Shown here one piece after another: positions 1-19,405 of a DNA stretch of 64,000 nucleotides (its first letter is position 1; each line of letters starts with the position of its first letter). The stretch spans positions 372,001 through 436,000 of the forward strand of contig NZ_JBGKAC010000002.1 of NCBI RefSeq assembly GCF_041361465.1, in the 5' to 3' direction. The notes below the pieces were generated by a model, which was given only the letters and a program-made list of their open reading frames with translations, ran no database searches and was not told the DNA's origin. The DNA comes from Halobaculum sp. MBLA0143 (GTDB lineage: Archaea; Halobacteriota; Halobacteria; Halobacteriales; Haloferacaceae). Position numbers and translations under genes: made by a program.

Positions 1-2651
1 TCCCAGGCGTTCAGATACTCCTCGCGGTTCTTCCCGGCCTCGTAGCGTTCACGAAGGAAGTGCGCGCGGTCGAGTGTGGTCGCGTCGCGGTCGGGGCTCT
101 CGACGGCCTCGCGGACGTACGCCTGACGTTTCTCGTCGGACCAGTCGTACAGACGCAGCCCGTTCGCGTCCGTGTCGAGAAGGTGCATCTCCTCCATCTG
201 GTCTCGGGTCGCGTCCGCGCGCCGCAGGAGCTTGTTCAGGTCGTCCGTCGTCGGATTCCGTTGCTCCAGAAGATCGAGGTAGATGTCCACCTCGCCGAGG
301 TCCGCGTCCTGGACGATCCCGTAGATCCGGTCGACGACTGCCTTCGCGTCCATGATCTCGCCGGCGCGGTGGACTTTGCCGTGGTGTTTCGAGTACGCCT
401 GGAAACACTCCCCCATCTCGATCACGCCAACGTCACCGCGCGACAGATCGCGGTTAGATTCGAGCGTCTCGCGGGTCTCTCTGGCGGTCTTGACTATCTC
501 CCGCCGGAGGGTGTTCCACGACGTTGCCCGGCGATCTTCTGTCGGGCGGGCGACGATCACGATGTCGAACGACACCGCGTCGCCCCCGATGAACTTGTTC
601 AGGTCGGAGTTGATCGGGTACGTCGCCGTCACCTCGAACCCCGTCTCACACAGCGAGGTGAGCAGTTCTCCCCACGACTCCGAGTCGCTGTGGTGGTAGG
701 TGAACGCCAACACGCCGTCGTCTTTCAGCGCACGGCGAATCACCGACAGCGCCTGTCCGATCTCGTGTTCGAAGTCTTCGGCCGTCTTGTCGAGGTGCGG
801 GTTCGTGACGATGGACTCCGCACGCGGCGTCTGCTCGCGGTCGAATCCCGGGTAATCGTCTTCGAGGAGGATCTTCTGCCAGACGTAGAAGTAGTCCGAC
901 ACCTCGCTGTAGATGATGTTGTCGTAGTACGGCGGGTCTGTGATCACCGCGTCGTACTCGTCTTCGGCGGTGATCTCCCGCATGTCGCCCTGGAACACCT
1001 CGCTGTCCTCGCCGATTGGCTGGGCGAACGGGTCGGTCTCGTTCGTCTCGCCGTCCTCGACGTATCGGTCCGTCGGGGCACTGGCGTACTCGACGGCGTT
1101 TTTCACCTTCTCGAAGGTGTTCGAGAACGTCCCCCGCCCGGCGGCCGCCCCCCAGACGTTGTTCTCGACGAACTCCGCCTGCGGGACGAAGGAGTTGAGA
1201 CGGAACGTCCCCTCGATCTTCGTCGCCGTCTTATTGTAGATCGTGAACGTACTGTTGAACATCAGCGCGTCACAGAACACGAGCAGGAGGTAGTCCCGGA
1301 GGTTCTCGTCGGAGAGGCGGTCGATGCTGTCCAGCAACAGCGCGTGTGACAGCAACTGCCGTTCGTTGAACATGTCCGTCCACTTCTCGTAGCCGTGTTG
1401 GAACACGTCGTTGCCGCTGATCGACGACGCCTCGGTGATCGCCCCCTCGGGAATCTCCTCGTCTGGGACGTACTCGTGGAGGTCCGTCCGGGTCTGCCAC
1501 GTCTGTGCCGCCGACTCCACGAGCCGCTGATCGGCCGGCCCGGCAGACTTGAACCCTTTGTAGACGGGGCGGTCGTGGCCCGCCTCCTCACACGTCTCAC
1601 AGTAGTACTCGACGGCGTACAGCCGCTCGTCCGGCTTCCCCTGCTCGGCGATGGCGTCCGTGATCGACTCCTTCAGCCCGCACTCGGGGCAGTTGTAGTA
1701 GCCGCCGCGCGAGACGTTCCCCTCCGCCGGAACCCACTGATTTCCGCAGTCACACGTACACTCACTGTCGTAGTCGTCGACCAGACTGATCTCGCCGCAG
1801 TCCGGACACAGGACGTTGTATCGGTCGTCGTTCTCGTAGCGCCCGGCTGCGACACGGTAGTCTTTGAACAACGGCACCGTGTGGTCGCACGACGTACAGT
1901 CGATCTCCTTCACCCAGAAGTTGTACATCACGTCCGCGTCGTGAGTGTGGTCGTCTTGGGTGTCGTGTCGTCCGTCGTGAGTTGCAACGGCCCCACCGTC
2001 CTGAACCGCTCGCGCAGTCTCACCGTCGGCCGAACTGTCGGCACTGTCCCCGTTCGGACAGGGTGTGCGGTAGTACCGCTTGATTTCGTCGGCCACCTCC
2101 TCGCGGACACGCTCGTAGGCTCGTTCGAGACGGTCGACACTCGTCTCACCCGCCTCTAGCTCTTTCTTCGTCACGAACCACGCAACGGGGTTGAGGTCGT
2201 GACCGACCGTTTCGACACCGAACCGAGAGGCCTCCACGAGCGAGGTTCCCCCGCCAGCGAACGGATCGAGCACGCTGGTCTCGTCGTCGATCCGGATATC
2301 TTTCGGGTACAACTGCCACAACGACTCCGGATCGGACATGTCGACGTTCCCTGCCAGCTCCTCCAGGCCCTCACGGGAGTGTGGCCCCCCAGCGGTCAGT
2401 GTCTGATTCGCACCGGGTTCGTACACCGACACCTCCCCGGCCGTCGTCTCCTCGTTCACCAGACTGTACAGCGTGATCGCCCGAAACAGGCTCCCGGGGC
2501 GGCGTGCCCACCACTTGTGCATCGTGTAAATCGGGCGGTACCACTGCTTCGCCCGGCTCTCGCGCGAGACGATCTCGTTGATCCGTTCGATCGGAAACCC
2601 GCGTTCTATGGGGAGTTCGACTCTGTCGTCGTTCCGATCCACATCCCGCAT
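1..2651 (-). CDS. DUF1156-family DNA methyltransferase, copy 1 (C-terminus beyond window)
   Basis: The reading frame is open from an ATG at 2651 to the left edge, so only the last residues are missing (about 883 seen). The N-terminus carries the DUF1156 hallmark (IERGFPIERINEI, then MHKWWARRPG). Methylase motif I, DPFAGGGTS, is near residue 128 and the catalytic DPPYYDN near residue 572. Between them are CxxC pairs (about residues 255-330) consistent with zinc ribbons. The family is annotated as adenine-specific DNA methylase with a Zn ribbon; the modified base here is inferred. The protein is closely similar along its whole length to copy 3 (16724-19405). It differs by an insert of roughly 25 residues, rich in Asp, Ser and His, near residue 185. 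It is divergent from the McrBC-like genes. A TATA-like element lies about 31 bases before the ATG, giving a short or absent leader. Certain as a family call; the DNA target is unknown. Confidence 0.9.
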   Translation of the reverse strand, partial: MRDVDRNDDRVELPIERGFPIERINEIVSRESRAKQWYRPIYTMHKWWARRPGSLFRAITLYSLVNEETTAGEVSVYEPGANQTLTAGGPHSREGLEELAGNVDMSDPESLWQLYPKDIRIDDETSVLDPFAGGGTSLVEASRFGVETVGHDLNPVAWFVTKKELEAGETSVDRLERAYERVREEVADEIKRYYRTPCPNGDSADSSADGETARAVQDGGAVATHDGRHDTQDDHTHDADVMYNFWVKEIDCTSCDHTVPLFKDYRVAAGRYENDDRYNVLCPDCGEISLVDDYDSECTCDCGNQWVPAEGNVSRGGYYNCPECGLKESITDAIAEQGKPDERLYAVEYYCETCEEAGHDRPVYKGFKSAGPADQRLVESAAQTWQTRTDLHEYVPDEEIPEGAITEASSISGNDVFQHGYEKWTDMFNERQLLSHALLLDSIDRLSDENLRDYLLLVFCDALMFNSTFTIYNKTATKIEGTFRLNSFVPQAEFVENNVWGAAAGRGTFSNTFEKVKNAVEYASAPTDRYVEDGETNETDPFAQPIGEDSEVFQGDMREITAEDEYDAVITDPPYYDNIIYSEVSDYFYVWQKILLEDDYPGFDREQTPRAESIVTNPHLDKTAEDFEHEIGQALSVIRRALKDDGVLAFTYHHSDSESWGELLTSLCETGFEVTATYPINSDLNKFIGGDAVSFDIVIVARPTEDRRATSWNTLRREIVKTARETRETLESNRDLSRGDVGVIEMGECFQAYSKHHGKVHRAGEIMDAKAVVDRIYGIVQDADLGEVDIYLDLLEQRNPTTDDLNKLLRRADATRDQMEEMHLLDTDANGLRLYDWSDEKRQAYVREAVESPDRDATTLDRAHFLRERYEAGKNREEYLNAW

Positions 2652-2681
2652 GTTCACTCATAGTATGTGCGGCCAGTCTAG

Positions 2682-2688
2682 TTTATAA
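2682..2688. promoter_or_regulatory. TATA-like element in divergent intergenic region
   Basis: The 119-base gap between the divergent starts at 2651 (minus) and 2771 (plus) contains TTTATAA, whose complement is placed about 31 bases before the minus-strand ATG. For the plus-strand gene a weaker TTTGTAT lies at 2744-2750, about 25 bases before its ATG. Both spacings fit leaderless or short-leader haloarchaeal promoters. Confidence 0.5.
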
Positions 2689-2770
2689 GCAATTTGGTGA
2701 TGGGAGCAGACAGCAGTTTAGCCCGAGGTTGTACAGAAAGAGATTTGTATGTTACAGTAGAGTGAATGGT

Positions 2771-4777
2771 ATGGACCCAGAAATCGCTCTTCTCGAAGCT
2801 ATCGGCGGTATTCCCGAATCCGTGGAGACGGGAGACAAATACGTTGACGTGGTCTCCAGCAGGCTTCCCGTGAGTAAGACGAGATTCTACGTGTACGAAG
2901 GATACAACACTAACAACGAAGACAGAACAAGCGAAAAGAGAGGTGAAGAGTACAGCTTCGACGTCAGAATGAGCAATCAGCGTACAAAGCCCGGTGACTG
3001 TGATATGATCGTTGTCTGCGGATATCTCGAGGGGGACGACGCTGGCGTATCCGAGGACGTTTTTCTTCTCGTGGACGATAGAATGATTGACCAATACGGA
3101 AAGGTGTCGGGGAAGCCGTACACCCCAAACTTCTACCAGAGAACTATCGAACGCGCAATTAGTCACAATATTGGCGTTCGGAGCCGCTCGGGAAAGAAAG
3201 TTGGACGTGACGGCGAGACTACAATAGTCACACCTGTGGACCATCTACTCAGAGGACTCCAAATTCACGCAAATCTACCTCTGGTCCGCGAGTATCTCCA
3301 CCGCAAGCTACCACCTGACTGGCGAGAGAGCCCGGCCAAGGCACAACAGATCGAGCGGGTCGTGGAGGTGTTTCTCACTCAAGAGAGCACGGAGGAGACC
3401 GCTGCGCGAAGGCGGGAGGCTCAGGAGATTATCGCAAATCAACAGGGCATCGAATACGATACGGTTCGGCAGAAGTGTGGATCAAAACTCTGGCACAGGG
3501 AATCTGACTCGTATCAGAGAGAACTATTCGACGAGGCCTTAGAGGAGATTGAGGCAGAGATAGAGCTCAGCACTTCACCTGGTGCTGTAGCGGGCTCTGG
3601 TGACGCCTCCCGTCCCACGTCTGAAACGAGAGTAGACCACCCTGACTGGACCGACCCGGATCACCTCCCAGGCCCGCACGTCGAAGCAGACCATCTAGAG
3701 ACGGATCTGTTCTTTCCGGACCAAATTCAGCCCGACACACCGATTGTGGCACGGATTGACGCTGCATTACGCAGTGGGAACCACCTCGTCCTCACAGGTC
3801 CACCAGGGTCGGGGAAGACGCAGTTGTCGAAGGAGATCTGTGAGCACTACCGCGACGACGCCTACAGAGTGGCAACGGCGACTTCCGACTGGTCAACGTT
3901 CGACACCATTGGGGGGTACAGGCAGCAGCGAGACGGTGATGATCTCCAGTTTACACCCGGACTGTTCCTCGAACGGTTCCGGACAGACGGCGACGGTGTT
4001 GCAGTGAACGAGTGGCTCGTCGTCGACGAGCTGAATCGGGCGGATGTGGACAAGGCGTTCGGCTCGTTGTTCTCAGTCCTCACCGGTGAGACGGTAACAC
4101 TCCCGTTCTCCGTGGAGATGAGCGTGGACAGCGAACTGGAAGAACGCCGCGTCGAGGTCCACGGGGACCCCAGCGAAGGGGCACCAACTTCTCCACACCG
4201 CTATTACGTCCCAGACGACTGGCGAATGATCGCAACGATGAACTCCGTCGACAAGGCATCGCTGTTCCGCATGAGCTACGCTTTCATGCGGCGATTAGCG
4301 TTCGTCAGTGTCCCAGTTCCGTCAGCAGAAGACATTGATCCGGATACAGTCGGTGAGTACCTGGAGTGTTGGAATATTAATCCCGAGGAGTACGACACGA
4401 GTGAGGTCTCTCTGGACGACGGCAAGACGTTCGGAGAGAAACTCCGTGAGGATCTAGCTCTGATCTGGACGGTCGGGCTCAAATGGGGTCCAGAGTTCGG
4501 GCCAGGTGTGATCCGGGACATTGTGGAACACGCACTGGCCGAACTTCAGACGAGCAACTCGCTCGGGTACGATCAGGCCTTGGCGTCGCACCTCCTCCCG
4601 CAGTTTGAGGGGCAGAAAGACGAAGCCATCAGAAAACTGTTCGAAAAGCTAGAAGAAAACGGGGCAGATGTACCGAGAACCACGTTGAGTGAGATCGAAC
4701 AGCCCGAAGACACGGCCGTCTCCCGGCAGTTCGCCGAGAACTACCTCGGCGCCGACCTCGGGGCACGGGACGACTGA
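2771..4777 (+). CDS. McrB-like AAA+ ATPase with unrecognised N-terminal domain
   Basis: A protein of 668 aa from the ATG at 2771. An upstream in-frame TTG at 2729 is possible but lies ahead of the TATA-like element. The C-terminal half is an AAA+ module of the McrB/MoxR type: Walker A GPPGSGKT near residue 345, Walker B with VVDELNRAD near residue 416, and sensor-like ATMNS followed by an Arg pair near residue 480. McrB proteins use GTP or ATP to drive a McrC-type nuclease; the N-terminal part (1-300) would then recognise the DNA, but I do not recognise its fold. The base composition is clearly lower in GC than the flanking genes, suggesting recent transfer. It ends seven bases before the nuclease gene at 4784, so the two are probably co-transcribed and form one restriction unit. 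Confidence 0.85.
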   Translation: MDPEIALLEAIGGIPESVETGDKYVDVVSSRLPVSKTRFYVYEGYNTNNEDRTSEKRGEEYSFDVRMSNQRTKPGDCDMIVVCGYLEGDDAGVSEDVFLLVDDRMIDQYGKVSGKPYTPNFYQRTIERAISHNIGVRSRSGKKVGRDGETTIVTPVDHLLRGLQIHANLPLVREYLHRKLPPDWRESPAKAQQIERVVEVFLTQESTEETAARRREAQEIIANQQGIEYDTVRQKCGSKLWHRESDSYQRELFDEALEEIEAEIELSTSPGAVAGSGDASRPTSETRVDHPDWTDPDHLPGPHVEADHLETDLFFPDQIQPDTPIVARIDAALRSGNHLVLTGPPGSGKTQLSKEICEHYRDDAYRVATATSDWSTFDTIGGYRQQRDGDDLQFTPGLFLERFRTDGDGVAVNEWLVVDELNRADVDKAFGSLFSVLTGETVTLPFSVEMSVDSELEERRVEVHGDPSEGAPTSPHRYYVPDDWRMIATMNSVDKASLFRMSYAFMRRLAFVSVPVPSAEDIDPDTVGEYLECWNINPEEYDTSEVSLDDGKTFGEKLREDLALIWTVGLKWGPEFGPGVIRDIVEHALAELQTSNSLGYDQALASHLLPQFEGQKDEAIRKLFEKLEENGADVPRTTLSEIEQPEDTAVSRQFAENYLGADLGARDD

Positions 4778-4783
4778 TGACGA

Positions 4784-6427
4784 ATGTTTGAAGAAAACAC
4801 GTCGGTCGCAGACTTTCTAGAAGACCACGAGTTCAACTTCGAGGCGGGTGAGAGAGACGACGGCACTGACGCGGTAACAGCATTTAAACAAGTTGTGAAG
4901 AAGATCCAGGATGACGAAGACCTGCGACCGGACCCCGAGAACGTTGTTGAGGCGGCCAGCGAGCACTTCGTCGCAAACGTTGGCAGCGTGGCAGATCCAG
5001 ATCCGATTGTCGAGAATGTTGACCCCGGCCACGATATCGCTGATCTCGACGAGCTGCTACAGTACCACTTCCTGAATACCGGCGTGGCTGTCGACGACGC
5101 CACTCGATCAGAAGTCAACGAGATAGACGAAGTCGTCGCAGCGGCTACGACGCATCTCGACACACACGTTGGCGTGCAGGACTTCGTGGGTCTACTCGAC
5201 GAACGACTCCGGACTGTCGACACGGACGTGACAGAAGAGGTTCGACGGTTCGACGGAGAAATCCACGGTCGCGTCGACTGGCAGGAGACGATCAAACACC
5301 GACACACCACGGGTGAGCCGACTGAACAGACGTACGCCTGTCGTGTACAGCGCCGTGACACGCTTTCTGCACGGAATCGCGTGCTGTTCGACTTACTCGG
5401 CGAACTCATCGAGATCTGCGAGCGGTTCGAACGGAACCACGTCGGCAGTGACGGGTCGTTTCCCAACTGGCTCGATGGCTGGGGGCCAGAAGGCCGCTAT
5501 CGCACTACAGTTGAGTCGGGACTGTCGAACGCGCATTTCAGGAGCGTCGACACAAGTGAGGTGACGGCCAACGACAGAGAGGTAAGAACTGTCCGGCGCG
5601 ACAGGGAACCACTGTATCGTGAAGCTGCGGTGCTGTTAGAGCGGTACCGAGAGATTCAGCGAGGAGGAGTGACGGATGAGGACGCCGGAGACCTGTTCGG
5701 AATGGACGTCTTCAAGCCCGACGTAAGCAGCGACGGCGAGTCGACAATCTACGAACTCTACTGGCACTTCGAGATTGCCGCTCAGTTCGAAGCCAGCGAG
5801 TTCAGGCCGCTCGACATTGCCGGTGGTGACAGTCTCGTCGCCGCTTGGGAGAACGAGGCGAAAGGCAGTCGTTTCCTCCAATTCAACGATTGGAACGGGG
5901 CGGCAGCAGTCGACGGATCTGAAGAGAAACAGTATCTCCGGTTTGCTCCACCGGATGCACGGGTAGAAGACGGACCCGAGCCCGGCGCGTCTCGCGGTGG
6001 TCACGTCCACCAAGCGTGGCAACGTGTCCGGGAGCAAGGGCTGGATAAATCGTTTAATAGCGACGACCGGGAGCCGGACATCGTTCTCTTGGAATTAGAC
6101 GCGACTGCCGATACGCCGACGATTGAGGGAGTGTTCGTTGGTGAGGTAAAACGAACCGATAGTCTCCACACCATCGACGAGGCGATCGCACAACTCGCGG
6201 AGTACGGAGCCTTCACCGAGGTGGGTGACGACGCAGTGTTAGCCGGAGATCCGAACGCTGATCACGTTGCGACGGACACGGAGTTCCTCGGCGACGAGCG
6301 TCTCGAACTCGGACTGTTCGTCAGCTCTGGCCACCAAGTCGAAGCAGAGCCCGACGAGATCCAGCTGTGTTGGTTCGACGACGCTGGGCCAGAAGGCGGT
6401 ACCGTCAACCGCCCGCTGCGGGAGTGA
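4784..6427 (+). CDS. PD-(D/E)XK nuclease, McrC-like partner of the upstream ATPase
   Basis: A protein of 547 aa whose ATG lies six bases after the stop codon of the McrB-like gene. The C-terminal third shows a PD-(D/E)XK pattern: EPDIVLLEL near residue 431, then VFVGEVKRT with Glu and Lys near residues 455 and 457. Just before it is a segment beginning YELYWHFEI, like the aromatic E-x-W region that precedes the nuclease in McrC/DUF2357-type proteins. The N-terminal part is acidic and unrecognised, perhaps an adaptor to the ATPase. Gene order (ATPase, then nuclease) matches McrB-McrC. Inference: this is the cutting subunit of a two-gene restriction module. It is more divergent from classical McrC than the protein at 7854. 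Confidence 0.7.
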   Translation: MFEENTSVADFLEDHEFNFEAGERDDGTDAVTAFKQVVKKIQDDEDLRPDPENVVEAASEHFVANVGSVADPDPIVENVDPGHDIADLDELLQYHFLNTGVAVDDATRSEVNEIDEVVAAATTHLDTHVGVQDFVGLLDERLRTVDTDVTEEVRRFDGEIHGRVDWQETIKHRHTTGEPTEQTYACRVQRRDTLSARNRVLFDLLGELIEICERFERNHVGSDGSFPNWLDGWGPEGRYRTTVESGLSNAHFRSVDTSEVTANDREVRTVRRDREPLYREAAVLLERYREIQRGGVTDEDAGDLFGMDVFKPDVSSDGESTIYELYWHFEIAAQFEASEFRPLDIAGGDSLVAAWENEAKGSRFLQFNDWNGAAAVDGSEEKQYLRFAPPDARVEDGPEPGASRGGHVHQAWQRVREQGLDKSFNSDDREPDIVLLELDATADTPTIEGVFVGEVKRTDSLHTIDEAIAQLAEYGAFTEVGDDAVLAGDPNADHVATDTEFLGDERLELGLFVSSGHQVEAEPDEIQLCWFDDAGPEGGTVNRPLRE

Positions 6428-6497
6428 TAGATCCGCCTCTGTATTTTCCCCCACGAGACAGGTATCGTTTTGTGCGCCGGGTCGATAGAGTGAGTAG

Positions 6498-7778
6498 ATG
6501 AGTAACTTCCGGCGCCGATTCGAGGACTACTCGCGGGAGGAGTTAGAGTCGGAACTGGACTTCGTGCTCGGTGCAGCAGAGACCGTCAAGCGGTTCGTGA
6601 ACGAGACGAGCGACCCGAGCGCCGTCGAACTTCTCGTCGAGGAGGAGGCAGACAAACGGTACGGCCGTGGGCCAGACTCCGTCCGGGAGCGGATACTCAC
6701 CGCCGACGTCACGCCGTTCGAGACCAAACAGAAGATCTTCCGACGCGACGCCGACGACCTCGGCGAGACTCTCGTCCCGGATCGTGTCGAGCAGAACGCT
6801 CGCACGGCGCTCGCGGTCGGCAAGCCGGTGGTCCTCTACGGTCCGACCGGCACCGGAAAGACCCACTTTGCGAAGCAACTGCTCGCGGAGGAGTGTCTGG
6901 ACTACGAGATCGCCACGGCGACGCCGACGTGGACGCCCGGCGACATCACGGGGAGCATCCAGCCGGAGTTAGACGACGGCGACGTGGAGTACCGCCGCGA
7001 GCCGGGGTGTGTCTCTCGGGGGATTCAACAGGCCGAGCGGTACGGGAAGTGGGGTGTCCTGTTGGACGAGATCACCCGCGCGGACATCTCGCAGGTGTTC
7101 GGCCCGTTGTACACGGCCGTCGAGGACGACAGCCAGACGATCTTCGTCGACGACGAGGGCCGAGAGCTCAGTCTGACGGACGACGTGAAGATCGTCTGCA
7201 CGATGAACATGTCCGACCGGACCGTGAACGAACTGGACGACGCGATCACGCGCCGGTTCGCCATGATCGAACTGCGGGAGTACGACGCGGAGAGTCGGAA
7301 GGACCTGTACAGGTCGTGGATGGTGTCGGAGTCGGGATTCGGTGTCAGCGAGACGGACAGTAACATCGTCATCACCAACGCTCCGAGCGATTTCGACTTC
7401 GACGACGACGACCTGCTCGACCTCTTCGAGGCCCACCACGTCGGCATCAACGAGGGGACGACGACCGACCGCGACGAGCCGATCACGGAGTTCGGCCCGA
7501 TGCACTACCGCGACGTGATCCAATTTATCTCCGTCGCCTGCGCCGACGGCGGGGCGTACGCGGGCAACTACGCTCGCGCCGTCGGCGAGGCGTTCGCCAC
7601 CTACGTCGCGCCACGGCTGCTCAACACCGCCGCGCTCCCGCAGATCAGACGGCTCGCGGAACACTACACCACGCTCGACGAGGAGCACCCGGCGTTCGAT
7701 CTCTCGCCGGCGATCGAACTCGTGGAGCGGCAGGCGGAGACGGAACAGCGCGGGATCGGCAGTGGTGCCTACGAGTGA
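6498..7778 (+). CDS. McrB/MoxR-type AAA+ ATPase without a DNA-recognition domain
   Basis: A protein of 426 aa starting at the ATG at 6498. It contains Walker A GPTGTGKTHF near residue 115, Walker B VLLDEITRAD near residue 190, and TMNMSDRT followed by ITRRF (sensor and Arg residues) near residues 235-255. There are only about 100 residues before the AAA+ core, so the 5-methylcytosine-binding type of N-domain of classical McrB is absent or replaced. A TATA-like stretch at about 6461-6473, some 30 bases before the start, suggests a promoter separate from the first McrBC-like pair. The McrC gene follows after 75 bases. Confidence 0.88.
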   Translation: MSNFRRRFEDYSREELESELDFVLGAAETVKRFVNETSDPSAVELLVEEEADKRYGRGPDSVRERILTADVTPFETKQKIFRRDADDLGETLVPDRVEQNARTALAVGKPVVLYGPTGTGKTHFAKQLLAEECLDYEIATATPTWTPGDITGSIQPELDDGDVEYRREPGCVSRGIQQAERYGKWGVLLDEITRADISQVFGPLYTAVEDDSQTIFVDDEGRELSLTDDVKIVCTMNMSDRTVNELDDAITRRFAMIELREYDAESRKDLYRSWMVSESGFGVSETDSNIVITNAPSDFDFDDDDLLDLFEAHHVGINEGTTTDRDEPITEFGPMHYRDVIQFISVACADGGAYAGNYARAVGEAFATYVAPRLLNTAALPQIRRLAEHYTTLDEEHPAFDLSPAIELVERQAETEQRGIGSGAYE

Positions 7779-7853
7779 CACCGAGCCCGCGGCGACCGGG
7801 ACGGTCGAAACACTCCTCGACGGAACCGTGACAGCGCGAGCGACACGACACGA

Positions 7854-9683: not shown

Positions 9684-9690
9684 GTCGTCG

Positions 9691-12366
9691 TCACCGCTGG
9701 AACAGTGTCTGGTAGTCGTCGTCGTCGGTGACCGCCGCGATTTCGGCGGCGACATCGAGCAGTTCGCCTACCGTGTCCGGGTTCGTCGCGTCCAGAGCCG
9801 TCCCGTCGGGGTCCTCGTGGCGCGCGCGGGCCAGGTGGACGGTGTCGAGAGGCGTCCGGTCGTCGGGGGGGAGCGACTCGACGTACGACCGTCGTGCCGG
9901 CGTGTCCCAGGCTGCCAGTGTCAGTTCGTCCGACAGATCGACGAGTCGACACGCCTCCAGATCTGCCGGGTCGACGTCGATCCCGCGGCAGAGTCGCCGT
10001 ACGTCCGCCGCAGTCGGGTCGTCCGTCGCCAGGAGATCGAGGTAGACGTCCGTCACGGTGACATCACCGCCGAGCGTGTCGAACAGCTCCGACAGGATCG
10101 TTTCCGTGTCGAGAGTGTCGCCGTCGCGGTGGACTGCGCCGTGGTGCGGGGCGTACGCACGGAGACACCGGCCGAGCGCGACCACCGCGGCGTCACCCTC
10201 CGAGATCGTCTGGCCGGTGGTCGCCGCCTCGTGTGCCTCGCCCGCGGTCGCGTGGAGTCGTCGCCGGATCGTCGGCCAGCTCACCGCCTCCGGCTCCGAC
10301 TCCGGTTCGGATCTCGGCCGGGCGACGACGACGACGGTGAACTCGGCGTCGCCATCGCCGAACGCGCCGGCGTCGGCGGAGACGGGGTACGTCGCGGTCG
10401 GGGCGAAGCCGGCATCGGCCAGCCCGTCGACGAGCGCCGCCCACTCTGCGGGGCCGCCGTGGCGGTAGGTGAACACGAGGAGACCGTCGTCCGCGAGCAC
10501 GTCTCGGACACGGTCGAACGCCGCCGCGAGCGCCGTCTCGAACCCTTCGTCGTCGACTCCCGTTGCCGGGTTCGAGACGATCTCGCCGTCGCGCGGAGTG
10601 TGTGGCGGCTCGAACGCCGGATCGTCGTCCGCGAGGACGAGCCGGAGCCAGACGTAGTAGAACTCCGACAGCTCCGAGTAGATCGCGTTGCCGTAGTACG
10701 GCGGGTCCGTGAGAACCACGTCGTACGGCGCGTCGTCTGTGGCTGCGGTGCGGGCGTCACCCTGTCGCACCTCGCTGTCGCCGCCGACGGGGTGGTCGAA
10801 CGGCGGGCTCTCGACCATCTCGTCGTCGACGAGGTGTCGTTCCGTCGGGGCGCTGGCGTAGGCGACGGCGTCACGCACCTTCTGGAACGTGTTGGTGAAC
10901 GTCCCGCGGCCGGCGCGGGTGCCCCAGACGTTGTTCTCGGCGTACTCGACGCGCGGGGTGAAGGAGTTGCGTCGGAACACGCTCTCCACCTTGCCGCCGT
11001 TCGGGTTGTACAGCGACAGTCGGCTCTGGAACGCCAGCGAGTCGGTGAACGCCGTCAGGAGGTAGGCTCTGGCGTCTGGGTCGTCGATCTCGTCGATGGC
11101 AGACAGGAGTGTCGCCAGACAGTAGCGCTGTCGTGGGTTGAACAGATCCTGCCACTGCTCGAACCCGTGGGCGAACAGGTCGTTGCCGCTGATGCGGGAA
11201 CTGGTCGTGACCGCGCCCTCGGGGATGTCCGTCTGCGGGAGGTACGCGGACAGGTCCGAGTCGGACGCGAGCGCGTCGGCGGCCGCGTCGAACCGTTCGC
11301 GGTCGGCCGGGGTCGCGCCGCGGTACCCCTTGTACGTCGGCCGGTCCGCACCGTCGTCCTCGCAGTCGGGGCAGTAGTACTCGACGGCGTAGAGATAGTC
11401 CTCGTACGACCCGCCGTCGGCGATGGCGTCGACGATGGGGTACTGGAGCCCACAGGACGGACAGCCGTAGTTGCCGTTCGCAACCGGGCCGACCGCGGGC
11501 CGGAAGGAGTGGCTACACGAGGGGCAGACGGCCGTCTCGTCGTAGTCGTCCGTCGTGAACACGGTCTCGCAGTCCGGACAGAGTACCACGTCGCGGTCGC
11601 TGTCGTCGTAGCGACCGGCGGCGACGCGGTAGTCTCTGAACAGTCGCACCCGTTCGCCACACGACGAGCAGTCGAGACAGCGAACCCACAGCCCGTACAC
11701 CACGTCGGCGGTGTGGTCGTCGTCTTCCGGACAGGCCGTCCGGTAGTGTGATCGGAGTTCGTCCGCGACAGAGTCCCGGACGGTCTCGAAGGCGGTCTCC
11801 AGCGTCTCGGTGTCGACGCGGTGTGCCTCCAGGCTCCGCTCGGTCAGGAACGTCGCCACGGGGTTGAGGTCGACGCCGGTGACGGCCGCGTCGAACCTGA
11901 CGGCCTCCGCGAGCGTCGTCCCGGCCCCGACGAACGGGTCCAACACGCTCGTGTCGTCGACCCGGACGTCGGCGGCGTACAGGTCCCACAGCGCGGCCGG
12001 CGACTCCAAGTCGACGGCGTCGATTGCCGCCGCCAGGCGGTCGCGGTCCCACGCTCCCGAGAGGTCCGTGTCGTCCGTGTCGGTCGTGTTCCCGTCGTCT
12101 ACGTCGTTGCCGGCGAACTCTTCCAGCGGCGTCTCGGTGCCGTTCTTCTCGCCCGGCTGGCGGACGGTCACGGCGTCGGGGTCGTCGACGAGGGTGTACA
12201 GCGAGACGGCGCGAAAGAGGGTGCCGAGCTGTCTGGCCCACCACTTGTGGAGGACGGACAGCGGGCGGTAGTGGAGCTTCGCGCGGGTCTCGCGGTTGGC
12301 CAGGTCGCTCACCCGTTCGATCGGGAACCCCCGCTCGATGGGGGCGCGGTCGCGGTCGTCCGTCAC
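9691..12366 (-). CDS. DUF1156-family DNA methyltransferase, copy 2 (divergent)
   Basis: A protein of 891 aa. I use the GTG at 12366, which places IERGFPIERV about eight residues in, as in the other two copies; the reading frame is open further upstream but that part is Arg/Pro-rich and not protein-like. Motif I DPFVGAGTT is near residue 140 and DPPYYGN near residue 550 (Gly where the other copies have Asp). Zinc-ribbon CxxC pairs sit between them. MHKWWARRPG is replaced by VLHKWWARQLG. It is clearly a separate lineage from copies 1 and 3, and it alone faces and abuts the McrBC genes. Inference: it may set the modification state that the McrBC-like nuclease reads or avoids. No clear TATA box was seen upstream. 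Confidence 0.9.
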   Translation of the reverse strand: MTDDRDRAPIERGFPIERVSDLANRETRAKLHYRPLSVLHKWWARQLGTLFRAVSLYTLVDDPDAVTVRQPGEKNGTETPLEEFAGNDVDDGNTTDTDDTDLSGAWDRDRLAAAIDAVDLESPAALWDLYAADVRVDDTSVLDPFVGAGTTLAEAVRFDAAVTGVDLNPVATFLTERSLEAHRVDTETLETAFETVRDSVADELRSHYRTACPEDDDHTADVVYGLWVRCLDCSSCGERVRLFRDYRVAAGRYDDSDRDVVLCPDCETVFTTDDYDETAVCPSCSHSFRPAVGPVANGNYGCPSCGLQYPIVDAIADGGSYEDYLYAVEYYCPDCEDDGADRPTYKGYRGATPADRERFDAAADALASDSDLSAYLPQTDIPEGAVTTSSRISGNDLFAHGFEQWQDLFNPRQRYCLATLLSAIDEIDDPDARAYLLTAFTDSLAFQSRLSLYNPNGGKVESVFRRNSFTPRVEYAENNVWGTRAGRGTFTNTFQKVRDAVAYASAPTERHLVDDEMVESPPFDHPVGGDSEVRQGDARTAATDDAPYDVVLTDPPYYGNAIYSELSEFYYVWLRLVLADDDPAFEPPHTPRDGEIVSNPATGVDDEGFETALAAAFDRVRDVLADDGLLVFTYRHGGPAEWAALVDGLADAGFAPTATYPVSADAGAFGDGDAEFTVVVVARPRSEPESEPEAVSWPTIRRRLHATAGEAHEAATTGQTISEGDAAVVALGRCLRAYAPHHGAVHRDGDTLDTETILSELFDTLGGDVTVTDVYLDLLATDDPTAADVRRLCRGIDVDPADLEACRLVDLSDELTLAAWDTPARRSYVESLPPDDRTPLDTVHLARARHEDPDGTALDATNPDTVGELLDVAAEIAAVTDDDDYQTLFQR

Positions 12367-12532: not shown

Positions 12533-15500
12533 TCAGTCGAACTCTACGTCGATTTCGATCTCGATCACGTTCGTCGGGATGCGGGTGACGATCTCGGCGA
12601 TCTCCTCGTGGGAGACCCCCTCGGAGAGTTCGAGGATCGTCCGGCTGCGGCCGAAGGAGGCGACGCCGGTCATCGACGACGGGACGGCGCTGTCGTCCGG
12701 GACTGTGTACTCTACAGTGCCGATGGCGACCTCGCCGGTGGCTCCCTCGTCTTTCCACTGTTGCCGGAGTTCTTCCGCATCGGTGCCCTCGTACTGGAAT
12801 TCGTCGCCCTCCGGCCGGACTTGGAACTGGATGCCGCGGTGCCAGTCGGCCGGATCGTCGCGGCTGCCCGGCGCGACTCGGTAGTCCGTCTCGCGGTCGC
12901 CGTCGAGTGCCCAGAACAGGACGTTGGCGACTGCGGCGGCCGGTTCGTCCGGGACGGTCTCGTCGCGGACGCCCTCGGCTCTGAACGTCGTCTCCGGGTC
13001 GAGCCCGTCAGCGTACTCCAAGACCTTCGTCCGGCCGTCGTCGCCGAGGAACGGGACGATCGTCACGCCGACGGGATCGCGGTCACCCAGCTGATCGGGG
13101 TAACGACCGTCCTCGCGGAGGCGGTGGGGACCGTCCAGCAGGTCGTCGACGGCGCGTCTGAAGACGCGTTCCGTCTCGTCGGCCGGGAGGTGGACCGCCC
13201 GGTCGTTCCGGATCGAGCCGAGCACGTCCGCCGTGTCGACGGCGGGGCTCTCCGAGAGGGTCGCGGTGATCCGGTCGCGGACGTCGTCCGCGTCCACCGA
13301 GTCGGCGTCGGCCGTGTCTCGCAGCGTCGCGTCCGAGCGTGGCCGGTCCAAGATCTCGTCGCCGTTGAACAGGACGTAGCGGTCCTCGCGGGCGAGTCGG
13401 CCGGCGGCGTGTTTCACCGCCTCCTCGACGGACTGCTCCGGGAACCACACGTCCGTCCGGTCGCGGAGGTCCAACTCGAACGAGCCCAGATCCACCGCCT
13501 CCTCACCCCGGCCGAACGCCGTCCGGAGCTCCGAGGCGACATCGTCGTCCGTCCAGTCGGCCACGTCCTCCCGTGCGACGAGTGTCGTGTCGGGGTCGAG
13601 CGTGTCGAACGTCTCCGTGAACCCGTCCGTCCGATGTGCCAACACGTCGTCGCCGTCGAGCGCCTCGGCGACCGCGCTGGCGACGGCCGACTCGTCTGCG
13701 GGGATGGGCCGCGAGGGGTCACGGAGGAAGCGGTCGTACACGTCGGCGACGGTGATCTCGTCGCGGGCGTCGAGTCGGTCGGCGACGATGTCTTCTGCGT
13801 GACGCTTCAGGTCGAACGGGGCCGCCTCCGAGGCGGCGGCGATCTCGCTGGCCGTCGGGAGTCGCTCCAGGCCCGTGTACGTCTCCAGATCGAGTGTGGT
13901 CGCCGTATCGAACCCGTTCAGCGGGTCGTCCGTGTCGAGCACGTCGCCGTATGCGCTGCGGACGCGACGTTCCAGGTCGGCCTCGTACTCGTCTTCGAGG
14001 TCGTCGATCTCCTCCCGGATGTCTTCGGCGAAGTTCTGGTCGTCTTTCCGGAGTCTGGCTCCCAGAATCTCCTTGGCCTTGCCGAGGAACGTCTCCGTGC
14101 GGGCGCCGGCGGTGATGTCCGTGTCGCCGCTGGGTTGGACGAACACCAGCGTGTTGCGCCACTGGCGGCCAGTGGGTCGATTCTTGACGATCTCGGCCAC
14201 CTCCGCTTCCGTCCAAGGGGCGTTCTTGACGACCGTCTTCGCCCGTTTGTCGTCGGGCACCTCGCCCAGGCGACCGTCGTCGGTGAACCCGACGGGGTAC
14301 GCGCCGGTCCCGAACACGGACTCGACGGTCTGGGCGAGCAACTGGAGCGCACGCTCGTCGGAGACGTCGCGAGCGGCGTTGCGGACGAGCGACCGGGGGT
14401 TCTCGTCCTCGCGGACGACGTACCGCTCGTCGTCGTCCGTCCAGAGGTGGTACACCTCCCCCTGGAGTCGCTGGAGGCCGACCACGATGTCGTTGATCCG
14501 GTCGCCGGCGTGGAACGTGCCGACGACGACGTCCTCTCTCGTCGCCCCCTCGTCCAACCCGGGGGTGAGCGAGTAGATCAACACGGTCGAGAGAATCTCG
14601 CGGCCGAAGTCCACCTCGGCGTCGGCGAGGCGGCGCTCGATGTCCTCGAAACACCGGTCCGGGCGGTCGTGCTGGATGTTGATCCGACCGAGTTCGTCGT
14701 TGTAGTCGACGGCGTCCACCTGGCCGTGGGTGAGCAGATCCGTCTCCTCGTAGCGGTCGACGAGCACGCGAGCGAACAGGTACAGCATCCCGCGGGTGGG
14801 GCCGGACTGGATCTCCTCGCCGTCGGCCGTCTCGCGGGTGCCGGAGTCGGCGCCGGCGGCGTAGCGGGTCTGGAGCGCCGAGATCAGCTCCGGGTGGAAC
14901 GGGTACGTCTCGATCAGGCGATCGCGGAACCCCGGCTGGAGGTCGACGTGGTCCGTCTCCGCGTACGCCTCGACGTACTCGTCCGCGAGCGACCGGAGTC
15001 GGTCCTCGTCGCGCACCTCGCCGATCAGGCGGTGGCGCAGCACCTCGCCGATGGACACCTGATTCGACATGTTCACCTCGACGCGTTCCTGGCGCGAGAG
15101 GATGTCTTGAACCGTCGACTCCTCCCGCAGGACGGAGACGACGGGGAACAGCCGCGTGTCCGGGCGCGTGGACGCCTCACACAGCGCCTGGAGGAAGCCA
15201 CGATTCGCCGCCTCGCGGCGACCCGTCAGCGAGTCGAAGAAGTCCTCCAGTTCGTCCACGAAGAAGGCCACCGTCCGGTCCCCGACGGCCTCGCTTATCA
15301 CGTCGATGGTGGGGTACCCCCCCTCCTCGTCGTAGTTCGTCCGGTCGGGCTCGTAGCCCAAGGCGTCGAACAACGGCTCCCAGAGGTAGTCGAACTGTTC
15401 TTTCTGGAGCGAGAGGACGATCGGCTCGGCGTCGTCCGGCAGCGCCGCGCCCAGCCCCTCGACCCGGCCGTCGGCCCAGTCGGCGACGGCGTCGGGCGAG

Positions 15501-15805
15501 GCGAAACAGTGGTACAGCGCCACCATCTGGTGGGTCTTCCCCGTGCCGTAGGGGCCGTACAGCTCCTGAATCCGGGTTCGGTCTTCCCCGTTCAGCGTGT
15601 CGCGGAGTCGCTTCAGCGAGTCTTCCAGCCCGTCGGTCAGCAGCGTGCGGTCGAAGAACCGCTCGGCGTTCGACTCCAGCGACTCGTCGCTCTCGACGTC
15701 GTAGAGCCTGATCTGGCCGTCGACCAGGCCGTCGCCCTCCGTGAGTTCCGGCGACAGCTCGACGACGTCGTCGATGGTGGTCTCCAGAACCGCGTCCGCG
15801 CTCAT
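12533..15805 (-). CDS. DUF499 family AAA+ ATPase
   Basis: A protein of 1,090 aa from the ATG at 15805, a normal length for the DUF499 family. Walker A is GPYGTGKTHQM near residue 85 and Walker B FFVDELEDFF near residue 178. The remainder is acidic with predicted helical and winged-helix-like stretches but no other motif that I can name. DUF499 ATPases are found next to DUF1156 methylases and SNF2/DEAD helicases in defence islands (helicase-methylase-ATPase, Hma-like systems). Here the neighbours are DUF1156 copies on both sides, all on the minus strand. A TATA-like TCTTAAG lies at about 15829-15836, some 28 bases before the start, so the gene has its own promoter. The role as the ATPase of an antiviral complex is inferred from context. 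Confidence 0.88.
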   Translation of the reverse strand: MSADAVLETTIDDVVELSPELTEGDGLVDGQIRLYDVESDESLESNAERFFDRTLLTDGLEDSLKRLRDTLNGEDRTRIQELYGPYGTGKTHQMVALYHCFASPDAVADWADGRVEGLGAALPDDAEPIVLSLQKEQFDYLWEPLFDALGYEPDRTNYDEEGGYPTIDVISEAVGDRTVAFFVDELEDFFDSLTGRREAANRGFLQALCEASTRPDTRLFPVVSVLREESTVQDILSRQERVEVNMSNQVSIGEVLRHRLIGEVRDEDRLRSLADEYVEAYAETDHVDLQPGFRDRLIETYPFHPELISALQTRYAAGADSGTRETADGEEIQSGPTRGMLYLFARVLVDRYEETDLLTHGQVDAVDYNDELGRINIQHDRPDRCFEDIERRLADAEVDFGREILSTVLIYSLTPGLDEGATREDVVVGTFHAGDRINDIVVGLQRLQGEVYHLWTDDDERYVVREDENPRSLVRNAARDVSDERALQLLAQTVESVFGTGAYPVGFTDDGRLGEVPDDKRAKTVVKNAPWTEAEVAEIVKNRPTGRQWRNTLVFVQPSGDTDITAGARTETFLGKAKEILGARLRKDDQNFAEDIREEIDDLEDEYEADLERRVRSAYGDVLDTDDPLNGFDTATTLDLETYTGLERLPTASEIAAASEAAPFDLKRHAEDIVADRLDARDEITVADVYDRFLRDPSRPIPADESAVASAVAEALDGDDVLAHRTDGFTETFDTLDPDTTLVAREDVADWTDDDVASELRTAFGRGEEAVDLGSFELDLRDRTDVWFPEQSVEEAVKHAAGRLAREDRYVLFNGDEILDRPRSDATLRDTADADSVDADDVRDRITATLSESPAVDTADVLGSIRNDRAVHLPADETERVFRRAVDDLLDGPHRLREDGRYPDQLGDRDPVGVTIVPFLGDDGRTKVLEYADGLDPETTFRAEGVRDETVPDEPAAAVANVLFWALDGDRETDYRVAPGSRDDPADWHRGIQFQVRPEGDEFQYEGTDAEELRQQWKDEGATGEVAIGTVEYTVPDDSAVPSSMTGVASFGRSRTILELSEGVSHEEIAEIVTRIPTNVIEIEIDVEFD

Positions 15806-15909
15806 GTCACCCCGTCGTCGCGGCGCGGGCTTAAGACTGTATGGACGAGAGGGAACGAAAACGGGGGGTCGCCGCCGGCGGAGCGTGCTCGGGGGGGTGT
15901 CGCGTCGCT

Positions 15910-16512
15910 CTACTCCGGGCCGGCGTACGTCGTCTCGATCGGTGCGCTGATCTCGGTCGTGTCGACGTCTTCGGCGTCTTCGGCGTCTTCGGCGTCTTCG
16001 GCGTCTTCGGCGTCTTCGGCGTCGTTCGCGTCGGTAGTGGTGCCTGCGTCGGTAGTACCTGCGTCGGTGGGCGTCGCCCGCGGGTCGCTCGCCCGGCGTC
16101 GGAGGCCGTCGACCCCGCGCTCGTCCCCGGGGGTCGGGGTCTCGACGACCGTGAACAGCAGTCGCACGAGCGTGTCGAGCGTGGCCCGTCGTTCCGTCGG
16201 CGTGAGTCGGTAGCCCACGCTGCCGTCGTCCGCGCCGGGGACGGCCGTCCCCACCCCGCGGTCGTCGGCGGAGCGACCCGTGCCGTCGTCGTCCGCGACG
16301 AGTGTCGCGTCCTGTACGTCCGCCACCGCCTCCGTCACGGCGCACAGCAGCCGTTGGAGCGGTGCCGCCGGAACGACCCGTTGTTCCGACAGCAGTCGGA
16401 GAACGGTCTCGGTCCGCTCGCGCAGTTCCTCGACGCGGTAGCTCGGGAGCGGCCGCTCGGCGAGCGCTTCGAGTGTCTCCTCGTAGTCCGCGGCGAGCGT
16501 CGCTACGTCCAT
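15910..16512 (-). CDS. Small acidic protein with EDA repeat tail, unknown function
   Basis: A protein of 200 aa between the DUF499 and third DUF1156 genes on the same strand. The ATG at 16512 is preferred because a TATA-like GAATACTTC lies about 30 bases upstream; the frame continues to 16569. Residues 1-75 look alpha-helical (LAADYEETLEALAERP onward). The tail holds about six Glu-Asp-Ala repeats followed by a short Thr/Glu-rich end. I do not recognise a family. Its conserved-looking N-terminus and its fixed place between the ATPase and methylase genes suggest a third subunit or adaptor of the same system. The repeat tail could vary in length by replication slippage. Confidence 0.6.
   Translation of the reverse strand: MDVATLAADYEETLEALAERPLPSYRVEELRERTETVLRLLSEQRVVPAAPLQRLLCAVTEAVADVQDATLVADDDGTGRSADDRGVGTAVPGADDGSVGYRLTPTERRATLDTLVRLLFTVVETPTPGDERGVDGLRRRASDPRATPTDAGTTDAGTTTDANDAEDAEDAEDAEDAEDAEDVDTTEISAPIETTYAGPE
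15966..16020. repeat. 9-base tandem repeat (GTCTTCGGC) inside the small acidic gene
   Basis: About six perfect copies of the nonamer GTCTTCGGC run in tandem. On the coding (minus) strand each copy encodes Ala-Glu-Asp. The unit is a multiple of three, so changes in copy number keep the frame. Confidence 0.9.
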
Positions 16513-16723
16513 CGTGCCGTCATGTTTTTGTGACGGCGAAGTATTCGAACACATGTCGTGGCCTGCCACGACACTGCGGAGGTAGGGCGCTGTGACGCCC
16601 TGCCGTTTTCGCGGCGCCCCCGCAGCGTCGTATTTCGGATCAGGTGGCTGCGGGTAGTAAAGGTTACGGCGGGTTGAACTAGTAGCTAAATTCGGGTAGA
16701 GAGGTGTCAGAGACGAAGAGCGA

Positions 16724-19405
16724 TCAGTCGCCGCCGAGCTCCTCCAACGTCACGTCCGCGCCGAGCATTCGGAGGTACGTCTCGTCGCCCGTCACTCGGG
16801 CGAGGTCCTCACAGAGTTCCTGGAGCTCGTCGTGGTCCCACTCTTCCAGGTACTCTGTCCGTGCCCGACCCCGTTCGTACACTTCTCGGAGGAAGTGCGC
16901 TCGGTCGAGCGTCGTCTCGCTGCGGTCGGGACTCTCGACCATCTCGCGGACGTACGCCTGGCGTTCCTCGTCGTCCCAGCCGAGGAGTTCGAGACCGGAG
17001 GCATCGGTGTCGAGGAGCTCCATCTCCTCCATCTGTTCCTGTGTGGCGTCTGCGCGTCGCAAGAGCTTGTTGAGATCGTCCGTGGTGGGGTTCCACTCGT
17101 CGAGCAGGCCGAGGTAAACGTCTGCCTCGCCGAGATTGGCGTCTTGAATGATCCCGTAGATCTGATCGACGACCTCCTTCGCGTCCATGATTTCGCCGGC
17201 ACGGTGGACTTTGCCGTGGTGCTTCGAGTACTCTTGGAAGCATTTGCCCATCTCGATCACGCCGATGTCGCCAGAGGCGAGTTCACGGTTCTGTTCGAGT
17301 GATTCACGGGTATCGCGTGCCGTCCGGACGATCTCGCGGCGGAGCGTCCGCCAAGACGTTGGCTCTCGGTCGTCCATCGGGCGGGCGACGATCACGATGT
17401 CGAATGAGACCGCGTCCCCGCCGATGAACTTGTTCAGGTCGGAGCTGATCGGGTACGTCGCGGTGATCTCGAAGTCGTTTCGGCAGAGTGAGGTGAGGAG
17501 TTCCCCCCAACTCTCGGAGTCGCTGTGGTGGTATGTGAACGCGAGGACGCCGTCGTCTTTTAGCGCACGCCGGACGATAGAGAGGGCTTCGCTCATCTCT
17601 CGCTCAAAGTCCTCAGCGGCTTTGTTGACTGCCGGATTAGCGACTATCGACTCTGCACGAGGTGTCGCTTCGTGATCGAACCCAGGGTACTCATCTTGTA
17701 AAAGAATCTTCTGCCAGACATAAAAGTAGTCAGATAATTCACTATACATAACGTTATCGTAGTACGGGGGATCGGTGATGACGGCGTCGTACGTATCTTC
17801 CTTGTCAATTGTCCGCATGTCCCCGAGATCCGCCACGGCCTTTCGCCCGATCGGTTGAGAAAACTCTTCAGATTCAACCATTTCTCCGTCGTCAACGTAC
17901 CGTTCGGTTGGTGATTGAGCGTATTCAACACCCCGACGGAGTTTTTCCCAGGTATTTTCAAACGTTCCGCGGCCGTTCTTCGTTCCCCAAACATTGTTCT
18001 CGACAAAATCGGTCTGGGGGACGTACGCATTCATTCGGAATATCCCCTCCATGTTGTTCCGTTGTTGATTGTATATTGTGAACTCACACTGGAACATCAA
18101 CGAGTCCCCGAACACCATCAGCAAAAACTCACGGAGGTTGTCGGACTCGACCTTGTCTATTGACGACAGCAGCTTCGCCAGAGACAGTAACTGACGATCG
18201 TTGAACAGTTCTCTCCACTCCGTGATGCCGTGCTGCCTAAGATCACCTGCACCCGGCGCGCTTCCGGATATACTCGAAGAGGCTGTCTTCCACCCATCCG
18301 GAATCTTCTCGTCGGGCACATACTCGTGGAGATCCGTTCGTTCAGCCCATTCACGTGCCGCGTCGTGATACAATTGATGATCCGATGGATCGGCCTGCTT
18401 GTACCCCTTATATATGGATTTCGGTTCGCCGGCACCCTCACAACGTTCGCAGTAGTACTCAACCGCGTACAGTCGTCGGTCAAGCCTTCCCTGTTCAGTG
18501 ATGGCGTCAGTAATGTCCTCTTTTAATCCACATTCTGGGCAGTTGTAGTAGCCGCCACGAGTGACATACCCTTGTGACGCGTCGAACGTGACGAAACAGT
18601 TCTTACACGTGGATTCCTCGGCCTGCCAGTCGTCCACGAGCGTCACCGCGCCACAGTCCAGACAGAGAACATTGTACTTGTCGTCGTTCTCGTACCGACC
18701 CGCCGCCACACGGTAATCCTTGAACAACGGCACCGTGTGCCCGCAGGAGGTGCAGTCGAGTTCCTTCACCCAGAAGTTGTACATCACGTCCGCGTCGTGG
18801 GCGTGGTCCCCCTCGCCGTTCGGGCAGGGCGTCCGGTAGTACTGCGTGATCTCGTCGGCCACGTCCTCGCGGACGCGCTCGAACGCCGCCTCCAACTCCT
18901 CGACGTCCGTCTCGCCCGCCTCCAACTCCTTCTTCGTCACGAACCACGCCACGGGGTTGAGGTCGTGCCCCTCCGACTCGACGCCGAACCGGGACGCCTC
19001 CACGAGGGAGGTGCCCCCGCCCGCGAACGGGTCCAGGACTTTGGTGTCCTCCGGGAGTCGCACGTCCTTGGGGTAGTACTCCCACAGCGACTCGGGGTTG
19101 TCCATGTCGACGTTCGCGGCCGCGTCGACCAACTCCGACGCAGAGTGGCCGTTCTCCCCCAGCGTCTGGTTCTCGCCGGGCTCGTACACCGACAGCTCCG
19201 CCGGGTCCGTGTCCTCGTCCAACAGGGAGTACAGCGTGATCGCACGGAACAGACAGCCCGGCCGCCGCGCCCACCACTTGTGCATCGTGTAGATCGGACG
19301 ATACCACTGCTTCGCCCGGCTCTCCTTGGCCGCGATCTCGTTCACTCGCTCGATCGGGAACCCCCGCTCGATGGGCCGCTCCGTCCGCTCGCTGTCGTCT
19401 GTCAC
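16724..19405 (-). CDS. DUF1156-family DNA methyltransferase, copy 3
   Basis: A protein of 893 aa from a GTG at 19405; a TATA-like GAACTTAT at 19431-19438 sits about 30 bases upstream and excludes the longer in-frame starts. It opens with IERGFPIERVNEI and MHKWWARRPG, has motif I DPFAGGGTS near residue 124, zinc-ribbon CxxC pairs near 250-320, and DPPYYDN near residue 543. It is a near relative of copy 1 across the full length. The central stretch, roughly 17600-18620, is visibly more AT-rich than either end, as if replaced by recombination. It lies upstream of the small acidic gene and DUF499 on the same strand, so it is the most likely cognate methylase of the DUF499 ATPase. Confidence 0.92.
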   Translation of the reverse strand: MTDDSERTERPIERGFPIERVNEIAAKESRAKQWYRPIYTMHKWWARRPGCLFRAITLYSLLDEDTDPAELSVYEPGENQTLGENGHSASELVDAAANVDMDNPESLWEYYPKDVRLPEDTKVLDPFAGGGTSLVEASRFGVESEGHDLNPVAWFVTKKELEAGETDVEELEAAFERVREDVADEITQYYRTPCPNGEGDHAHDADVMYNFWVKELDCTSCGHTVPLFKDYRVAAGRYENDDKYNVLCLDCGAVTLVDDWQAEESTCKNCFVTFDASQGYVTRGGYYNCPECGLKEDITDAITEQGRLDRRLYAVEYYCERCEGAGEPKSIYKGYKQADPSDHQLYHDAAREWAERTDLHEYVPDEKIPDGWKTASSSISGSAPGAGDLRQHGITEWRELFNDRQLLSLAKLLSSIDKVESDNLREFLLMVFGDSLMFQCEFTIYNQQRNNMEGIFRMNAYVPQTDFVENNVWGTKNGRGTFENTWEKLRRGVEYAQSPTERYVDDGEMVESEEFSQPIGRKAVADLGDMRTIDKEDTYDAVITDPPYYDNVMYSELSDYFYVWQKILLQDEYPGFDHEATPRAESIVANPAVNKAAEDFEREMSEALSIVRRALKDDGVLAFTYHHSDSESWGELLTSLCRNDFEITATYPISSDLNKFIGGDAVSFDIVIVARPMDDREPTSWRTLRREIVRTARDTRESLEQNRELASGDIGVIEMGKCFQEYSKHHGKVHRAGEIMDAKEVVDQIYGIIQDANLGEADVYLGLLDEWNPTTDDLNKLLRRADATQEQMEEMELLDTDASGLELLGWDDEERQAYVREMVESPDRSETTLDRAHFLREVYERGRARTEYLEEWDHDELQELCEDLARVTGDETYLRMLGADVTLEELGGD

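Follow-up and report, generated by a model that had tools for sequence, protein, structure and literature searches.

A DUF499-centred, BREX-related gene set with McrBC as its probable nuclease in a haloarchaeal defence island

The window analysed here is a stretch of 64,000 nucleotides (G000:C2:372001-436000) within a 589-kb contig of Halobaculum sp. MBLA0143 (NZ_JBGKAC010000002.1), and its left end is occupied by a defence island in which an original prediction, made from the letters alone, had placed three DUF1156 methylases, two McrBC-like pairs and a DUF499 ATPase. Every gene listed in it is an open reading frame at the position given. The reverse strand carries the three DNA methyltransferase genes, MT1 (1..2651, truncated at the edge of the window; complete, it encodes 920 aa, C2:371889-374651), MT2 (9691..12366) and MT3 (16724..19405, 71% identical to MT1), together with the gene for a DUF499 AAA+ ATPase similar to BrxC and HmaC (12533..15805). 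On the forward strand there is a first ATPase-nuclease pair, made up of the McrB-like AAA+ ATPase AAA1 (668 aa, 2771..4777) and its nuclease partner N547 (4784..6427), and a second one, composed of the AAA+ motor McrB (426 aa, 6498..7778) and the PD-(D/E)XK nuclease McrC (609 aa, 7854..9683). Transcription of McrB and McrC runs toward the methylase and DUF499 genes, and they do not share an operon with them. Also on the forward strand is P291 (19701..20576), the conserved right-hand gene of one type of locus (clade 1, see below), present in 13 of the 66 loci compared. A 200-aa protein encoded between DUF499 and MT3 on the reverse strand (15910..16512) has no match in Pfam, PADLOC or NCBIfam, was not seen at this place in relatives nor among the recurrent families of the 66 loci, and is a doubtful member of the system. 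Low-complexity stretches are found at 15910-16512 (the tail of this protein) and at 19402-19620, between MT3 and P291. Adjoining the right end of the island, at 20610-21983, is a gene for a Mrr-type restriction endonuclease (PF04471, 3.6e-25), a candidate further type IV enzyme.

The gene set extends beyond the original list to the left of the window. The helicase that had been suggested to lie there is present, about 1.9 kb beyond the window edge, as an SNF2 gene of 637 aa (C2:368170-370083), accompanied by a 405-aa partner (C2:366960-368177). Between SNF2 and MT1 there are two small forward-strand genes (L005:16199-17861, equivalent to C2:370199-371861), the first with a relative near the sister DUF499 system (see below) in locus L152 and the second with a PIN-like start (DTNLLLGY, by eye), which possibly represent a toxin-antitoxin-like insert.

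All three methylases exceed the cut-off of 24 bits for DUF1156 (PF06634), with 39.4 (MT1), 36.6 (MT2) and 41.7 bits (MT3), and each has a DPPY and a DPFxGxGT motif as well as CxxC motifs, four or five in number (DPPY, DPFAGGGT and four CxxC in MT1; DPPY and DPFVGAGT in MT2; DPPY and five CxxC in MT3). The DUF499 protein is matched weakly yet significantly by PF04465 (38.1 bits, cut-off 23 bits) and by the PADLOC model HmaC (2e-17). Against DUF499_antiphage and DUF1156_antiphage, which are NCBIfam equivalog models for one narrower subfamily, the scores were 62.7 bits (cut-off 1200) and 113-156 bits (cut-off 1000), respectively. The label "Hma-like" that had been given to the island is right in kind.

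The profile of the second-pair McrB family matches solved McrB structures (PDB chains, 5e-19), and the Walker A (GPTGTGKT), Walker B (DE) and NMSD motifs are invariant across its alignment. Likewise invariant are the catalytic residues of McrC (H365-P367-D368 ... D382-S383-K384). All 12 aligned members of the McrC family match the Pfam McrBC model (PF10117, best E 8.6e-17); the window's own McrC taken alone falls below the cut-off (15.2 versus 23.9 bits), and its direct match to PDB is weak and confined to the catalytic stretch. The second pair has the sequence hallmarks of McrBC, a predicted AAA+ GTPase with NxxD and a PD-(D/E)XK partner. The domains known to read modified bases, DUF3578, EVE, YTH and SRA, gave no Pfam match in McrB, McrC or a protein of about 130 aa that accompanies them in relatives (see below); a reader domain of unrecognised type in any of these is possible. 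The first pair is similar in kind. AAA1, like McrB, matches AAA_5 (2.9e-15) and, far below the cut-off, the McrB model NF008457 (5e-9), both proteins have a Walker A and the McrB NxxD signature (MNSVDKA and MNMSDRT, respectively), and a PD-(D/E)XK motif is present in both nuclease partners (C-terminal in N547, at residue 431).

The DUF499 protein and a profile of the second-pair McrC served as queries against 394 genomes of the order. Of 59 McrC proteins of this family, 57 lay no more than 16 kb from a member of the DUF499 family and, reciprocally, 57 of 61 DUF499 genes (counting the window's own) were paired with that McrC at the same distance. At the level of genomes, DUF499 occurs in 58, McrC in 56 and both in 55 of the 394, a co-occurrence with a hypergeometric p of about 2e-62 if genomes are treated as unrelated. 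One fragmented genome (G013) accounts for two of the unpaired cases, with DUF499 and McrC on separate contigs; the DUF499 loci of G329 and G212 have no McrC of this family nearby and that of G252 no recognisable McrC. Among the sampled genomes of the order, about one in seven has the system, and a phylum-wide sample gave no member of the same McrC family outside the order. Beside the linked family there is a diverged, unlinked McrC group with 13 matches. In G067 (G067:C4:88683-90439) an McrC relative outside the DUF499 context is split by an in-frame stop. A Halocatena salina plasmid (L133:3982-10288) has genes for McrC, a methionyl-tRNA ligase (metG) and an ADP-ribosylglycohydrolase clustered near an SNF2 gene.

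Gene neighbourhoods were compared in 20 relatives and in 45 loci taken from records of named haloarchaea. Clustering over 66 loci, with some genomes in both sets and some loci truncated at contig ends or at the limit of the fetched flank, gave seven recurrent families: DUF499 (66 loci), DUF1156 methylase(s) (61), SNF2 (55), a protein of about 130 aa (55), the 405-aa protein (52), McrC (49) and McrB (48). The next commonest family appears in only 17. The original prediction had called for a search for conserved gene order in other haloarchaea, and the same seven families recur in named genomes, with the plasmid NZ_CP101167.1 of Haloglomus halophilum as an annotated example. Two main arrangements are found. 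Clade 1, to which the window belongs, has the order 405-aa gene, SNF2, methylase, McrB-McrC, ~130-aa gene, methylase, DUF499, methylase and P291, with two or three methylases, and the subfamily of MT2 adjoins DUF499 in these loci, as it does in the window. Clade 2 has usually one methylase, and its SNF2 and 405-aa genes are placed across DUF499 from their clade 1 side. The ~130-aa protein has a confident predicted model (pLDDT 91) and no fold or Pfam relative was found for it; its gene is present in 55 of the 66 loci, yet a search of the Halobaculum sp. MBLA0143 genome did not find it, so this copy of the system may be incomplete. Median dN/dS values, 0.035 for SNF2, 0.04 for McrB, 0.056 for McrC, 0.082 for both the ~130-aa protein and the methylase and 0.18 for the 405-aa protein, indicate that these six components are maintained.

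A different pattern was found for the first pair. It was not found at its place in 20 related loci, which have other genes or none there. Homologues of N547 are present in 123 of the 394 genomes and in 6 of the 66 loci, and a hand count put one at most 25 kb from this DUF499 in only 8 of those 123 genomes and beside the sister DUF499 in 5 more. As these homologues lie mostly away from this DUF499, the first pair is an accessory module, and we rejected it as a core component. In the related loci (L038-L077 and L082-L126) other genes recur as cargo around the core, among them a UvrD/AddA-like helicase (17 of 66 loci) and a probable PD-(D/E)XK partner (9), DUF262/GmrSD-like proteins (14), extra McrB/McrC pairs and HNH genes. 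The UvrD-like, DUF262 and other non-core genes at these loci are accessory modules too. The proposal that the island is one composite system consequently holds for the three methylases, DUF499, the second pair (6498-9683) and SNF2, and has to be given up for the first pair (2771-6427). By composition and linkage, the view of the island as one conserved system with inserted modules is solid.

The SNF2 gene matches the BrxH, DrmD and HmaA models and, according to Pfam, consists of helicase domains only, with no fused nuclease. In the 405-aa protein we found a coiled coil and CxxC motifs and no nuclease match; the predicted model of its family (pLDDT 84) combines a beta sheet with a long helical hairpin and has a cysteine motif at the C-terminus. 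In a HMMER comparison with 11 chosen sequences, the family profile matched BREX-5 helicases from haloarchaea at their residues 700-950, and SNF2 and the 405-aa protein are co-linear with the two halves of these helicases. This agrees with the C-terminal domains described for BrxHII (PMC12839542), and the two genes likely encode a split BrxHII without nuclease. A fold search with the 405-aa protein returned nothing significant and a profile-profile comparison against fused bacterial helicases was not significant either, so that the split-helicase reading rests mainly on the HMMER match. Coiled-coil matches to PbeC and LmuB were discounted, and the 405-aa protein as a PglZ or another nuclease was ruled out on its sequence and predicted model.

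The methylases stand apart from the rest of the system in the way they diverge. Over 15 complete named loci, pairwise distances of DUF499, SNF2, McrB and McrC correlate with r values of 0.88-0.97, and correlations involving the 405-aa and ~130-aa genes are 0.81-0.95, whereas those between the methylase and the other parts are 0.42-0.61. Within clade 2 alone the methylase correlation drops to 0.07 for DUF499 and 0.11 for McrC, and over 26 loci the methylase-DUF499 correlation is 0.08, versus 0.88 for SNF2-DUF499. In these 26 loci methylase divergence peaks at residues 300-515; between MT1 and MT3, too, it is unevenly spread along the sequence. A case in point is provided by Halorussus marinus LYG-36 and H. 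halobius HD8-83, in which the DUF499, SNF2, 405-aa and ~130-aa proteins are 100% identical (rounded) and McrC and McrB 98-99%, and whose methylases are 86% identical, dipping to 46-62% at residues 400-550. Likewise, H. marinus and Haloarchaeobius sp. FL176 share 99% identity in DUF499, 98% in McrC and 72% in the methylase. We infer that the variable central stretch of the methylase is a putative target-recognition region. Near-identical machinery with different methylases implies that the methylase probably sets the specificity of both marking and cutting. A separate endonuclease of fixed specificity would harm the host after a methylase swap, which favours a machinery directed to its target by the methylase, similar to that of BREX or type I systems. 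Swaps are by themselves compatible with a McrBC acting independently on modified DNA.

Which component would then cut? Apart from McrBC, no recognisable conserved nuclease appeared in the core in the 66-locus clustering, the PglZ search and the helicase comparison. PglZ as a hidden effector was rejected: in 26 genomes carrying DUF499 of this type, PF08665 gave no hit in the 25 kb to either side of it. This model might miss a diverged PglZ, but a conserved one would have surfaced in the clustering. PglZ does turn up in a sister haloarchaeal DUF499 system (about 30% identity), also present in this genome (L007:6848-13606, C2 about 542.8-549.6 kb), whose operon comprises DUF499, a gene of about 308 aa, a DUF1156 methylase and usually a gene of about 129 aa. 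The ~308-aa family is PglZ-like, with 11 of 14 members matching PF08665 and an alignment that keeps the DHGY and HGG motifs. In 15 further haloarchaeal genomes examined, the sister DUF499, PglZ-like and methylase genes recur as a group, in most cases along with the ~129-aa gene. No helicase lies within the fetched 19 kb in this genome, and the sister system looks like a helicase-less relative of BREX-Related type 3. None of 26 distant DUF499 loci has the McrC of the window type nearby. Of the two DUF499 systems of haloarchaea, one thus has PglZ and the other McrBC, and by elimination McrC is therefore the likely nuclease of the one described here.

Taken together, we propose, with a probability of about 0.6, that the island holds a haloarchaeal variant of the DUF499-centred BREX-Related (Hma-like) systems in which McrBC serves as nuclease, specificity is set by the methylase and unmarked DNA is cut. 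The DUF1156 methylases, of predicted N6-adenine type, would mark host DNA at sites determined by their central region. Methylase, DUF499 and the split BrxHII-like helicase (SNF2 and the 405-aa protein) would form a complex that scans DNA and that, on meeting an unmarked target site, would call in the GTP-driven McrB ring, upon which the PD-(D/E)XK domain of McrC would cut. For a stricter version, with McrBC as an obligate effector against unmodified DNA, a scanner of DUF499/BrxHII type and a target set entirely by the exchangeable methylase, we consider the odds to be even.

Textbook McrBC cuts DNA carrying modified cytosine, and one could imagine that selection has kept a classical type IV enzyme together with the DUF499 system here, the latter acting against unmodified invaders and McrBC independently against modified ones. 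Type IV enzymes are known as BREX auxiliaries (PMC12839542), and the additional, variable McrBC-like pair and the DUF262 genes at these loci resemble such auxiliaries, which are nevertheless confined to 17 of the 66 loci or fewer, whereas the linkage of McrBC and DUF499 is near-obligate in both directions. Removing McrBC would furthermore leave a core without a recognisable conserved nuclease, and a known modified-base reader was not found in McrB, McrC or the ~130-aa protein. We therefore regard this co-selection as rather unlikely, and the evidence favours the cutting of unmodified, methylase-specified DNA over classical modification-dependent cutting, with McrBC probably an effector against unmarked DNA.

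The presence of a methylase alongside a nuclease of modification-dependent type could also point to a suicidal or marking response, in which the methylases would mark invading or damaged DNA and McrBC would cut what is methylated. This is hard to reconcile with constitutive methylases, which would mark the host DNA, and a methylase that varies independently of McrBC is a poor fit to a McrBC reading one fixed mark in context; we deem it very improbable. Least credible of all is that separate defence systems came together by chance to form the whole island. It is true that many other defence genes lie at these loci and that elsewhere the first pair mostly occurs without such linkage, but the same core is found in two gene orders and many genera, with correlated divergence of its parts. 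Independent occurrence of the McrBC-like and DUF1156/DUF499 genes in relatives, which the original prediction had named as the sign of such a cluster, is contradicted for the core by the McrC-DUF499 linkage and stands only for the first pair.

Should the proposed cutting of unmarked DNA be true, a McrBC motor can work inside a methylase-guided system. The nearly constant association of methylases, helicase and DUF499 with McrBC suggests that a cutter best known for marked DNA was recruited against unmarked foreign DNA. The loci with near-identical machinery and different methylases constitute a natural experiment on specificity in BREX-like defence.

In the literature searched, which covered few subscription papers, we found no description of this gene set. 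It shares with type IV McrBC (Escherichia coli, Thermococcus gammatolerans) the McrB AAA+ motor with NxxD and the PD-(D/E)XK of McrC, and differs from it in having no known modified-base reader and in its near-obligate DUF499 and SNF2 partners. BREX type 5, also haloarchaeal, has a helicase that resembles SNF2 and the 405-aa protein in co-linear fashion; it carries PglX and PglZ, and we know of no McrBC component in it. A census of McrBC (PMC11090510) reports it next to predicted methylases without mention of DUF499 and leaves their description to a paper then still to come, which may cover part of this system. An archaeal operon of COG1743, DUF499 and SWI2/SNF2-nuclease, proposed as a restriction system (PMC7641849), likewise brings methylase, DUF499 and SNF2 together; its helicase, however, is fused to a nuclease and it has an EVE protein alongside, and McrB is treated separately in that work, as a fusion partner of EVE-like domains. 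The core agrees with the DUF499-centred BREX-Related (BR) systems, types 1-3, which include Hma and are defined in a paper whose main text does not name McrB (PMC12839542). Common to them and the window system is a DUF499 ATPase, a DUF1156-type methylase of N6 type and an SNF2 helicase encoded together. Type 1 has a helicase-fused PD-(D/E)XK, type 2 has HKD and DUF3780, and type 3 has an unfused BrxHII-like helicase, PglZ and mostly an inactive STAND protein (PMC12839542). The window-system helicase has no PD-(D/E)XK fused to its C-terminus, unlike type 1. For the HKD nuclease and DUF3780 of type 2, the results cover a Pfam scan, which reported no nuclease domain on the helicase, and the clustering of the 66 loci, which brought up no conserved family beyond the seven. 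As in type 3, the helicase likely follows the BrxHII plan without nuclease, although as two genes, and the multiple CxxC motifs of the methylases are compatible with the two four-cysteine zinc fingers of some type 3 methylases (PMC12839542). In place of the PglZ of type 3, which is not linked to it, the window type has McrB, McrC and the ~130-aa protein and would, if our reading is true, represent a fourth effector arrangement in the DUF499/BREX-related family.
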